Source: a virus. From it: a DNA stretch of 64,000 nucleotides. This document shows positions 4,715 to 26,363 of this stretch, in pieces. Every line of letters starts with the position of its first letter. The stretch's first letter is position 1. Made by a program: the position numbers and the translations under genes. The stretch is taken from positions 1 through 64,000 of IMG/VR virus record IMGVR_UViG_3300025000_000086, one strand, 5' to 3'. A model generated the notes under the pieces. That model was given only the letters and a program-made list of their open reading frames with translations, searched no databases and had not been told where the DNA came from.

Positions 4715-5047
4715 ATGACAACACAAATAATGTATGATAAAGGATTAAGATGTAAAGGTAGAGGTTTTAATTGTGAAGGTTGTAGAGATAAAAATGAATG
4801 TATTGAATATGAAATTTGGGAACCCAAAAATACAGAATATGCACCAACATTGCAATTTAAATATAAAAACTATAAAAATGAAACAAGTATTAGAAATGTA
4901 ATTCCTTATAATATCCACTTCGGTAGCACAGAATTTCATCCACAAGAACAATGGTTGCTTCGTGCGTTTGATGTGGATAAATGTGCTGAAAGAAATTTTG
5001 CTTTGAAGGATGTTATTAAGTTTATATGGAAGGAAAAAATATGTTAA
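4715..5047 (+). CDS. Cys-containing hypothetical protein, 110 aa
   Basis: The N terminus carries RCKGRGFNCEGCRDKNEC, a compact four-Cys knuckle. The remainder is a mixed domain ending in a Trp-containing helix. The last 7 bases overlap the start of the next gene. Confidence 0.65.
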   Translation: MTTQIMYDKGLRCKGRGFNCEGCRDKNECIEYEIWEPKNTEYAPTLQFKYKNYKNETSIRNVIPYNIHFGSTEFHPQEQWLLRAFDVDKCAERNFALKDVIKFIWKEKIC

Positions 5048-5412
5048 ATAGTATAAAAGGATATCAATTAAAATCTAATATTACTAAAGAAAAATTAATT
5101 GAAGTAGGATTTAATAAAGATAATAATTTTCAAAAATTTAATTATTTTAGAAATCTTATTGATGATATAGAATTACATATAGAAATTGGAATAAATCCAA
5201 TCAAATTTAATGAATTTGACAATGTATTAGTATTAGATAGTAGTTTTGGTCAACCATATACTCCTTTTTATACTGCTAAAATTAGTTTTGAATATTTAGA
5301 TAAGGTAATTAAAAATTATAATATACAGATGGATAAATTAGTGAATAAAGGCGTGTTGGATTATAAAAATATTAAAGGAGCAATAAATTATGAATATCCC
5401 TATAGAATGTGA
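5041..5412 (+). CDS. Hypothetical protein, 123 aa
   Basis: I use the ATG at 5041 because AAGGAAAA lies just upstream. An in-frame ATG at 5026 would overlap that site. The protein is soluble, with a beta-rich centre. Its 3' end overlaps the next gene by 23 bases. Confidence 0.6.
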   Translation: MLNSIKGYQLKSNITKEKLIEVGFNKDNNFQKFNYFRNLIDDIELHIEIGINPIKFNEFDNVLVLDSSFGQPYTPFYTAKISFEYLDKVIKNYNIQMDKLVNKGVLDYKNIKGAINYEYPYRM

Positions 5413-5518
5413 AAATTGCTTATGTTATAACTGTAAAAAGAAAAATGAATGTAATATATGTATATATTGTTTGAATATAGAGTATTATCCTATATATGAT
5501 TGTGAGGAGGAAAATTAA
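5390..5518 (+). CDS. Cys-rich mini-protein, 42 aa
   Basis: ATG follows AAAGGAGCAATAA and the frame ends at TAA 5516-5518. Eight Cys occur in 42 residues, in the order CENC, C, C, CIYC and a final C. This strongly suggests a metal-binding knuckle. The stop is one base before the next ATG. Confidence 0.6.
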   Translation: MNIPIECENCLCYNCKKKNECNICIYCLNIEYYPIYDCEEEN

Positions 5519-5519
5519 T

Positions 5520-5873
5520 ATGAGAAATAATAAAGTAGATTCTAAATGGAAAAAGAGAATAAGTAAGCATAAAAGGTATAAAAAATTTTATTCATGGATA
5601 ATTAAAAGACTTGCATTACATTTGCTCAAAACAAGTAATTATTTAAAAGAAGAAGATTTAATACATAAAGAATTAACTATCACGTATAATCCAGAAGGTC
5701 ACGATCTATATCCTTCCTGTCATAGTAATCTAAAGCAATGGTGTTATAGTAAGAAGAAAAAATATATTGGAAGATTTGCTGAATATATTGTGTTTGGTGA
5801 TACTGAAGAAGAAATTTATTTAAATGTTATTGATGTAATACTATTTAAACAACATAGATATCCATTTTGTTAA
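5520..5873 (+). CDS. Basic hypothetical protein, 117 aa
   Basis: The ATG at 5520 is preferred over an in-frame ATG at 5496 because GAGGAGG lies between them. The N-terminal 35 residues are strongly basic (KWKKRISKHKRYKK), as in nucleic-acid-binding proteins. The C-terminal half is a mixed fold with one Cys near its end. Not recognised. Confidence 0.65.
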   Translation: MRNNKVDSKWKKRISKHKRYKKFYSWIIKRLALHLLKTSNYLKEEDLIHKELTITYNPEGHDLYPSCHSNLKQWCYSKKKKYIGRFAEYIVFGDTEEEIYLNVIDVILFKQHRYPFC

Positions 5874-5888
5874 AAGGAGGAAATTATC

Positions 5889-6143
5889 ATAAACACGATA
5901 ATCCTAAAAAGTTCTATTCAAACAGTAACAAAAATTAATCGTAAAACTAAAGCAAAATTATTTAAAGATTTAAAAATTGGAGATAAAGTAGAATTTTCTG
6001 TCCCTATTAAACGTGCAGGTAGTAACAGAGGTACGTATGCTACATATATAGAAGTAAAGAATGTTGAAACAGATGAATACACTTATAGTTCATTCAATCA
6101 ATTGCCTAGTATATTGGATGCATTTGAATTTGAAAGTGATTAA
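5889..6143 (+). CDS. Small protein starting at AUA, 84 aa
   Basis: A perfect AGGAGG at 5875-5880 is followed 8 bases later by ATA and then 83 open codons to TAA. No ATG, GTG or TTG occurs near the expected start, so translation probably begins at ATA 5889 or the adjacent ATC 5886. The product is a basic beta-rich domain with an acidic tail. Function unknown. Confidence 0.6.
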   Translation: MNTIILKSSIQTVTKINRKTKAKLFKDLKIGDKVEFSVPIKRAGSNRGTYATYIEVKNVETDEYTYSSFNQLPSILDAFEFESD

Positions 6144-6170
6144 TAGTAATAAGGAGAAAGGAGAATAAAT

Positions 6171-6338
6171 ATGTATTGTTTAATATGCGAACTAATAGTT
6201 AAATTAATAGAACAAGAATCAAATGAAAATGAAGGGTTATTTTATCAATATTATATATGTCCTAAATGTGATACTAGACATTACTGTACTTCACAATCTG
6301 GAGATATGATTCAAGAGTATTTGATTTTATGTGATTAA
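6171..6338 (+). CDS. Zinc-knuckle mini-protein, 55 aa
   Basis: ATG lies behind AAAGGAG. CLIC at residues 3-6 and CPKC in the middle form one four-Cys site. Two further Cys sit near the C terminus. Confidence 0.6.
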   Translation: MYCLICELIVKLIEQESNENEGLFYQYYICPKCDTRHYCTSQSGDMIQEYLILCD

Positions 6339-17699: not shown

Positions 17700-18960
17700 A
17701 AGGAGGTAATTAATTATCATTAAATCTTTTAAAATTCAATTAGAACCTAATAACAAACAATCTACTATTCTTTTTCAATGTAGTGGTACTAGTAGGTGGG
17801 CATATAATTTTGCTCTATCTAAAATACAAGAACATTATAAAGAAACAGGTAAATTTTTAAATGATGGTGAGATACGGAAACAACTTACTCAATTAAAGAA
17901 AAATGATAAAAAATATAAATGGTTATATAAATATAGTAATAATATAACTAAGCAAGCGATAAAAGATGCTTGTAATGCTTATCAAAAGTTTTTCAAAGGA
18001 TTAAGTAAGTTTCCTAAATTCAAGAGCAAAAAGAAATCTAAACCTAGTTTTTACAATGATACTTTTAAAATTAAGTTTACATCAAAACATGTTCAATTAG
18101 AAAAAATAGGCAAAATAAGATTATCTGAAAAAGATAGAATACCACAAGGAAAATATATGAATCCTCGTTTAACTTATAATGGTTTAAATTGGTATTTATC
18201 TATTGCTGTTGAAATTAAGAATGAAATTAAACCTATTTTAACTAATGAATCAATTGGTATAGATGTTGGTGTAAAAGATTTGGCAATATTAAGTAATGGA
18301 ATAGTATATAAGAACATAAATAAATCTAAAAAAGTAAAGAAATTAGAGAAAAAATTAAAAAGATTACAACGTAAATCTTCTAAAAAATATGAGAAAAACA
18401 AACAAGGAAATAAAATTATTAAAACTAATAATATAAAGAAACTTGAAGTTAAAATTAGAAAAATACATAAAATGTTTACCAATATTCGTACTGATTATAT
18501 TCAAAAGACAACTACAGAGATAGTGAGAACCAAACCATCTCAAATAGTAATGGAAACATTAAATATAAAAGGTATGATGAAAAATAAACATTTAGCAAAA
18601 TACATGCAAAAACAAAAATTATTTGAATTTAAAACATTAATAAAATATAAAAGTAATAAATATGGTATTAATTTTATAGAAGTAGACAGATGGTATCCTT
18701 CTTCTAAAACTTGTTCAGAATGTGGTTATGTAAAATCAAAATTAAGTTTAAAAGAAAGAGAATTTATTTGTGAAGATTGTGGAATTGTAATTGATAGAGA
18801 TTTAAATGCAGCAATTAATTTATCACGATATAGTGACAATACTGTGAGTTACACAGAATTTTAAGCCTTTGGACTACTAAATCAAACAGGAGTAGAAATA
18901 TCGAAACTGGGTAGGATGAATAAGGAAATAAACATAAAAGTTAATAAATTGAAATAGATT
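17700..18960 (+). mobile_element. IS605-like tnpB-only element
   Basis: The TnpB gene and its 3' tail lie between a frameshifted mini-gene and a decapitated deoxyribosyltransferase gene. This fits an element that inserted and damaged its neighbours. The bases after 18864 (to about 18957) would normally specify the guide-RNA scaffold. The exact ends were not determined. Confidence 0.5.
17716..18864 (+). CDS. tnpB: TnpB RNA-guided nuclease, classical type, AUC start
   Basis: A 382-residue RuvC-fold nuclease with the three catalytic acids D183 (GIDVGVKD), E280 (VMETLN) and D362 (DRDLNAA), and a zinc ribbon CSEC...CEDC at 333-355. AGGAGG at 17701-17706 points to ATC 17716, giving the family-typical start MIKSFKIQLEPNNKQ. 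The first ATG (18157) would remove 147 residues, including the whole N-terminal domain. The stop at 18862 is followed in frame by 31 more sensible codons to 18957, so the C-terminal tail seems cut by a nonsense change. No tnpA is present. Confidence 0.88.
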   Translation: MIKSFKIQLEPNNKQSTILFQCSGTSRWAYNFALSKIQEHYKETGKFLNDGEIRKQLTQLKKNDKKYKWLYKYSNNITKQAIKDACNAYQKFFKGLSKFPKFKSKKKSKPSFYNDTFKIKFTSKHVQLEKIGKIRLSEKDRIPQGKYMNPRLTYNGLNWYLSIAVEIKNEIKPILTNESIGIDVGVKDLAILSNGIVYKNINKSKKVKKLEKKLKRLQRKSSKKYEKNKQGNKIIKTNNIKKLEVKIRKIHKMFTNIRTDYIQKTTTEIVRTKPSQIVMETLNIKGMMKNKHLAKYMQKQKLFEFKTLIKYKSNKYGINFIEVDRWYPSSKTCSECGYVKSKLSLKEREFICEDCGIVIDRDLNAAINLSRYSDNTVSYTEF

Positions 18961-20675: not shown

Positions 20676-20705
20676 TATAATGACAATTGGTAATAACTTA
20701 AAATA

Positions 20706-20790
20706 TACTAGATATGGTGTGTAAATATAAAATAACCACTATATCTAGTAGTAAATCAATACAAATGTTCGAATTGGTGTTGATTTATAA
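20706..20790 (+). repeat. Intergenic stem-loop with shared 17-mer
   Basis: TACTAGATATGGTG (20706-20719) pairs with CACTATATCTAGTA (20737-20750) over 14 bp with one G-U. TTGGTGTTGATTTATAA then follows at 20774-20790, ahead of ATTAAATTAAA and the ribosome site. The 17-mer and its position match the 15983-15999 copy, while the stems differ in sequence, as if structure rather than sequence is kept. Confidence 0.5.
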
Positions 20791-25221: not shown

Positions 25222-25440
25222 ATGAATAATTTAATATGTCCGTTTTGTTTGCAAGATATTTCAAATGGTAATCATGCTTGGAATTGTCCAATGAATCCTG
25301 TGAATATTAATAATGGTGAATTTCAGTTGAATAATCATAAACATTTTAATAATTTGTTTACGTATCCTAAAAATCTAAATAAAATAATCGAAAATTCAAA
25401 AATTATAAAAATTGATATTCCACAAAGTGTTGATTTATAA
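25222..25440 (+). CDS. Zinc-site protein, 72 aa
   Basis: CPFC at residues 6-9 and a later HAWNC make a partial zinc-knuckle. The last codons (GTGTTGATTTATAA at 25427-25440) match the final 14 bases of the intergenic 17-mer found at 15983 and 20774. Confidence 0.6.
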   Translation: MNNLICPFCLQDISNGNHAWNCPMNPVNINNGEFQLNNHKHFNNLFTYPKNLNKIIENSKIIKIDIPQSVDL

Positions 25441-25488: not shown

Positions 25489-25699
25489 ATGATCTATGAT
25501 GATTTAAAAAAAGAAATTAAATTCAAATGATTTACTTAAAGAATTATTAGAACAGGCAGAAATAATTAATATTAAAGAATACGAAGATGATATTGATTGT
25601 TTTCGTATTAATATAAGTGAACCTAATATTAATGATTTTATTTCTACATTAAAAGAAGAAATAAAAGATGAAATTGTAAAAATCCTTAACAAAATATAA
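25489..25699 (+). pseudogene. Frameshifted ORF at an A7 tract
   Basis: MIYDDLKK at 25489 runs into a stop, but dropping one A from the A7 tract at about 25505 gives a continuous acidic helical protein of about 70 residues ending at TAA 25697. No ribosome site precedes the ATG, and a third frame just upstream also reads like protein. The locus therefore looks degenerate. A homopolymer sequencing error is the alternative. Confidence 0.45.
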
Positions 25700-25708
25700 A
25701 AATAATTG

Positions 25709-25737
25709 TTGACAACAAACTAATAAAATGTTAAAAT
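25709..25737 (+). promoter_or_regulatory. Sigma-A promoter for the large ncRNA
   Basis: TTGACA at 25709-25714 and TAAAAT at 25732-25737 with 17 bases between. It predicts a start near 25744, exactly where the gene-free structured region begins. Confidence 0.8.
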
Positions 25738-25743
25738 AATAAT

Positions 25744-26352
25744 GCACAAAACAATAAAAAAAATTATTGGAAAGCACTATGGAGATTAGTTAGGGAGTGC
25801 AATAGGGATATTAAATTCAGATGAATTAGATTAATCCATTAATGGACTTAGATAAACAGGATAGTCTGTTAATATTCCTTTCTGCTGTTGTGGGTTTCAG
25901 TAGATAAAAATAATCCGAGAGTTACGGATAAGAAAATAACTCATATGTGAAGTTTGGTGGGTATATGCAATGAATTTATATAGTTATGACAGAGTATCTG
26001 TATAATGGAAATTGTATATGGGATGATTAAGATAATACATGAAAACTCTGTTGTTTTACATCTTAGTCATGGTCTATAAAGGTGGGAATATAGACAAAAA
26101 TATTTTAAACCGTTGTTGTTTTAAAATGGGATTACATGTAAATGTAATGAGGTGTAGGATAACTTAAGTATCTGAGGGTGGAATTTCTTTTTCTCAACAA
26201 TCAACTAACCATCAATCCCCAAAATTGATTGCATTGGTCAAGCAAAACAACAGGTATGACTAAAGCATACTTGTTGACAAGAAGACTAATCCGTATTGGT
26301 TAGTACGGTTATATAAAGTAGTAGGTATTTTGGGTAGTTACTACTTTATATA
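25744..26352 (+). ncRNA. Large ornate structured RNA candidate (ROOL/GOLLD-like)
   Basis: About 600 bases without a credible ORF, with its own promoter and a 14-bp 3' terminal stem. Stems that I can pair by eye include 25774-25778/25796-25800, 25881-25887/25898-25904, 26023-26033/26060-26070 (11 bp, one G-U), 26072-26078/26089-26095, 26102-26109/26120-26127, 26131-26136/26143-26148, 26211-26216/26224-26229 and 26248-26258/26266-26276 (11 bp, one G-U). Hairpin 25913-25929 has a loop (25919-25924) that pairs with 25937-25942, a pseudoknot. Pairings 285-289/300-304 and 291-295/304-308 (add 26000) cross or compete. Size, promoter, phage location and pseudoknots fit the ROOL class (around 580 nt) better than GOLLD. 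The class assignment is inference. Confidence 0.75.
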
Positions 26353-26363
26353 TTTCTTTATAT
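26310..26363 (+). terminator. 3' terminal stem of the ncRNA
   Basis: TATATAAAGTAGTA (26310-26323) and TACTACTTTATATA (26339-26352) form a perfect 14-bp stem with a 15-base loop, followed by TTTCTTTATATT. The T run is broken, so it may be a weak terminator or the closing helix of the RNA. Confidence 0.55.

Follow-up and report, generated by a model that had tools for sequence, protein, structure and literature searches.

In this work, a free-standing noncoding unit was observed at positions 25709-26360 of the window (the whole stretch of 64,000 nucleotides that was analysed), which belongs to the 70.8-kb record of an uncultured bacterial virus with 25% G+C. The unit consists of a promoter, an RNA of about 610 nt and a terminal hairpin, all on the plus strand. 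The promoter (25709-25737) has TTGACA at 25709-25714 and, after a spacer of 17 nt, TAAAAT at 25732-25737, preceded by TG as in an extended -10 element. Its expected transcription start is 25744, and the promoter described in the earlier note is present and fits this start. The predicted transcript covers 25744-26360. The terminal stem, previously given as 14 bp, measured 15 bp (26310-26324/26338-26352) and is followed by a T-rich, terminator-like stretch; the T run is short, and a simple terminator scan made no call at this 3' end. We infer that an RNA of about 610 nt is transcribed from this good sigma-70-type promoter and ends as drawn here. The promoter layout is common to the window and to two contigs carrying homologues of the RNA, L003 (TAAAAT) and L008 (TAATAT).

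The longest plus-strand ORF within the RNA has 42 aa, in agreement with the earlier view that the region holds no credible ORF. The frame starting ATGAAAACTCTG comprises 42 aa in the window; in L008 it has the same start and 73 aa, and in L003 the frame from the same ATG ends after 9 codons. No ribosome-binding site was seen by eye ahead of this frame. Conservation of a reading frame among homologues, named in the earlier note as an observation that would speak against an RNA, was looked for in L003 and L008, and no frame is common to these two and the window. Directly before the promoter, 25506-25700 reads open for about 60 codons but lacks a usual start codon, and may be a disrupted small gene.

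Relatives of a small gene with a CPFC motif, located upstream at 25222, occur in each of the four sequences compared (window, L003, L008 and L002), and the RNAs of the window, L003 and L008 all lie downstream of relatives of one small gene. L002 is syntenic, with a ThyX 92% identical, and has no RNA between flanks that still align; the gene downstream of the RNA in the window is also found in L002, at 77% identity, and stands there without the RNA. The gene following the RNA differs among the three carriers, so the constant downstream gene expected of a cis-acting leader was not found. Together, the RNA-free L002 and the different downstream gene in each carrier argue that the RNA is not a cis leader. 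Judging from these comparisons, the RNA forms a unit of its own that has a fixed position among small genes and appears to be gained or lost whole. There is no tRNA gene within the 64-kb window. In L002, positions 5773-6291 hold a TTGACA-17-TATAAT promoter and two small ORFs in place of the RNA; one of them, of 63 aa, resembles a two-helix membrane protein, as at a cargo-swap (moron-like) site.

Relatives and conserved secondary structure

The L003 homologue was reached through the nearby ThyX (PF02511), which was used as a query and gave related contigs, one of them with the RNA (67% identity over 740 positions, E 9e-62). The L008 homologue was found by searching a virus collection with a 19-base conserved pattern (nhmmer 299 bits, E 2e-91; 79% identity over 667 nt). 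Between the window and L008 DNA, the RNA is the top-scoring similar stretch, with a carbamoyltransferase-like gene scoring lower (72%). Three members are known (window, L003 and L008), all metagenomic, and L003 and L008 are IMG/VR contigs from one sample. Further exact-pattern scans of IMG/VR gave no members besides the window, L003 (the same contig as L007) and L008, and scans of a bacterial and archaeal genome collection gave zero; because such scans require exact matches, distant members may be missed. L006 and L009-L016 were rejected as chance pattern matches. In blastn against phage and plasmid collections, the only hits were to ribosome-binding-site or other AT-rich stretches, besides chance matches of about 25 nt. 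A model of the 3' domain (R1), run over six related virus records, returned no members beyond the three already known; one further match, of 20.6 bits at window 20699-20788, was set aside because it looks like an unrelated hairpin. This intergenic stretch is a hairpin-like inverted repeat, part of which matches L002 in both orientations.

From 5' to 3', the predicted fold on the plus strand opens with hairpin P1 (25774-25800; GCACU/AGUGC), which has the invariant loop stretch GGAGATTAG. The 10-bp helix P2 (25805-25878) contains one doubly changed pair and encloses P2b (25828-25837/25859-25867), which is missing from L003. Hairpin P3 (25881-25904) has the invariant loop UUGUGGGUUU and two one-sided G-U/A-U changes. 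It is followed by P4 (25913-25942), in which loop GAGUUA (25919-25924) is exactly complementary to UAACUC (25937-25942), which confirms the pseudoknot reported earlier (PK4). Next come P5 (25964-25971/26011-26018) with P5a (25977-25983/25998-26004; loop ACAGAGU at 25989-25995), and then P6 (26023-26070), a stem of 11 bp with a compensatory change and the loop ACUCUGU at 26045-26051. Hairpin P7 (26072-26095; GUCUAUA/UAUAGAC) has the invariant loop GGUGGGAA and occurs twice in L003. P9 (26130-26149) has two doubly changed pairs between the window and L008, its region being replaced in L003, and P11 (26211-26229; AUCAAU/AUUGAU) carries an invariant 7-nt loop, CCCCAAA. The variable hairpin P12 (26248-26276) is 11 bp long in the window, against about 6 bp for L003 and 4 bp for L008. 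The 7-bp hairpin P13 (26291-26308) has two doubly changed pairs, and the terminal hairpin P14 (26310-26352) has the invariant loop core GUAUUUUGGGUA. The placement of P2, P2b, P4, P9 and P12 is manual. Both of the 11-bp stems with G-U pairs described earlier are thus present; the one in P6 (26023-26033/26060-26070) is conserved, whereas the one in P12 (26248-26258/26266-26276) is much shorter in the relatives.

PK4 is kept in L008; in L003 it is lost from its usual position and carried as a displaced copy further 3'. The middle of the L003 homologue (4880-5520) is rearranged: its P7 hairpin is duplicated (27 nt, spacing 132) and its pseudoknot module displaced. The middle of the RNA therefore appears to be modular. 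Two further loop-loop pairings are proposed from complementarity. In KL1, the P5a and P6 loops would form 7 bp, and in KL2, CCCAAA of the P11 loop (26218-26223) would form 6 bp with UUUGGG of the terminal loop (26329-26334). The KL1 and KL2 loops do not vary among the three sequences, whereas stems close to them do, and being invariant they give no covariation support. Moreover, when the loops were shuffled, 30% of trials had a best match of 7 bp, and 19% had in addition a second match of 6 bp, so that both pairings are to be read as candidates.

The fold is supported by compensatory changes, within the few events that three sequences offer. In an unguided MAFFT alignment of these, the best helix overall was P14, with 6 of its 15 pairs doubly changed and a helix score of 36 against a null maximum of 19. 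Over the helices, 12 doubly changed pairs were counted, against a mean of 1.7 and a maximum of 8 in 300 shuffles; the column shuffles preserved the gap pattern and conservation class. In the 3' domain (alignment A1), all 102 cells pair, eight pairs are doubly changed and none of 500 shuffles matched this, and the signal was gone after the helix partners were slid. The covariation among homologues asked for in the earlier note was thus observed, and the comparison of the three sequences indicates that the secondary structure is kept by compensatory changes. The fold energy cannot choose the strand, because both strands beat their shuffles (z of -3.3 for plus and -4.1 for minus; 20 shuffles each). 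The plus strand was chosen from the covariation and from the asymmetry between G-U and A-C. Seventeen helices were also listed by hand, with 136 pairs in all; 18 of these are doubly changed, and 5 of 372 cells are non-pairing. The list contains 18 G-U cells and no A-C cells (which would be G-U on the other strand), a count that argues for selection on a plus-strand RNA and is favoured by a list built from plus-strand pairing.

Relation to known RNA families

The sequences were compared by cmscan with 4227 families of Rfam 15 at E<=10, and gathering limits were also tried. At the RNA locus, the only match was to LPR69 on the minus strand (16.8 bits, cut-off 40), a chance sRNA match, and the loci in L003 and L008 gave nothing. 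The ROOL, GOLLD, OLE and HEARO models, whose use had been advised in the earlier note, were all negative at the locus, the positive control being that of the ROOL model only. This model (RF03087, cut-off 99.1 bits) scores the ROOL of L. salivarius pMP118 at 130.4 bits and matched nothing in the records of the window, L003 or L008 at E<=10. Conversely, a profile of the phage RNA did not match the control ROOL or the lnc001 region of Staphylococcus phage K.

ROOL is a noncoding RNA of about 520-660 nt from phages, prophages and plasmids, with pseudoknots, kissing loops and a variable inner stretch (PMC12286853, PMC5643018). GOLLD is a large ornate phage RNA in which the 3' domain is conserved and the remainder more variable, and size class, phage setting, pseudoknots and kissing loops are features of ROOL and GOLLD alike (PMC12286853). 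The phage RNA resembles ROOL in size class, setting and pseudoknot, its kissing loops being candidates. ROOL often lies near tRNA islands (frequently, not obligatorily), whereas the phage RNA has no tRNA neighbours. ROOL forms a homo-octameric cage. GOLLD is often longer than 800 nt and near tRNAs, unlike this RNA of about 610 nt without an Rfam match. The resemblance to both is one of kind, not of family. Staphylococcus phage K has the large noncoding RNAs lnc001 and lnc002, the former from its own early promoter (PMC9241854); these differ in being placed relative to tRNA genes.

Interpretation and alternatives

We hypothesize, with a probability of about two in three, that the locus is a self-contained phage RNA gene whose product, a noncoding RNA of about 610 nt, acts in trans via its folded shape and belongs to a family outside Rfam. 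The promoter at 25709-25737 would drive the RNA, loop-loop pairings would lock its helices into a compact body, and the fold itself would act in trans. It probably represents a new class of large RNA in phages, akin to ROOL and GOLLD in kind, and among the options in the earlier note a new class fits best, the RNA being promoter-driven, large and ornate with covarying homologues. By analogy with ROOL and GOLLD, one may speculate that the RNA binds its own copies and, early in infection or lysogeny, serves as an RNA scaffold or compartment. More tentative still is a new class without sequence relation to ROOL and GOLLD whose members would self-assemble as RNA-only multimers, joined by loop-loop contacts. 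If the multimer reading were true, RNA-only complexes would have arisen repeatedly in phages. Large ornate RNA classes are few, and what the phage ones do is still unsolved. An independent phage class of ROOL and GOLLD size provides a test of whether phages use RNA-only multimers as a recurring strategy, and its presence or absence at one site in close relatives makes carriers directly comparable with a non-carrier.

The alternative that survives best, itself rather unlikely, is a moron-like RNA for counter-defence or superinfection, which would act as decoy or inhibitor against a protein or RNA of the host or a rival phage and be swapped with other accessory cargo. The cargo swap in L002, where a promoter and two small ORFs (one like a two-helix membrane protein) stand instead of the RNA, allows this reading, and the RNA's own promoter and its place in an early-strand accessory region suit it. 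However, there is no target and no similarity to any known inhibitor RNA, and to our knowledge known decoy RNAs are smaller and less elaborate. A ROOL or GOLLD so divergent that the Rfam models miss it is improbable. Size class, phage setting, the pseudoknot and the candidate kissing loops are alike, but the three members gave no match at E<=10 where the control reached 130 bits, the profile of the phage RNA missed the control ROOL, and the window has no tRNA genes; the earlier suggestion of such a member was therefore not borne out. ColE1 RNA II is a promoter-driven structured RNA of similar length, and an RNA that acted on its own DNA as a replication pre-primer or as an origin transcript would likewise be structured and noncoding, with about 600 nt and a stand-alone promoter. 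ColE1 RNA II is a pre-primer, whereas nothing at the phage RNA indicates an origin. The syntenic L002 lacks the RNA, no replication genes adjoin it among the ORFs examined, and a terminal hairpin ends it, with selection on the fold including the 3' end; this explanation is very improbable. Equally so is a cis-regulatory leader or small coding gene: the 42-aa and 73-aa frames have a common start, but the frame stops early in L003 and has no ribosome-binding site, the downstream genes differ, and the terminal hairpin separates the RNA from the next gene.

Other RNA matches and TnpB-family genes

In the phage K lnc001 region (L018 633-769), a match to DUF3800-I RNA reached 43.4 bits (cut-off 44.2), and part of lnc001 may thus be a DUF3800-I RNA. 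Elsewhere in the window, the Rfam comparison found only RAGATH-18, the rest being chance matches. The RAGATH-18 RNA (18866-18927, 63 bits) begins 1 nt after a TnpB-family ORF of 235 aa (18157-18864), perhaps truncated, and the arrangement at 18157-18927 is that of an IS607 TnpB with its guide reRNA (PMC11061315). A second, longer TnpB-family gene of 403 aa lies at 219-1430 and has OrfB_IS605 and Cas12f1-like TNB domains.
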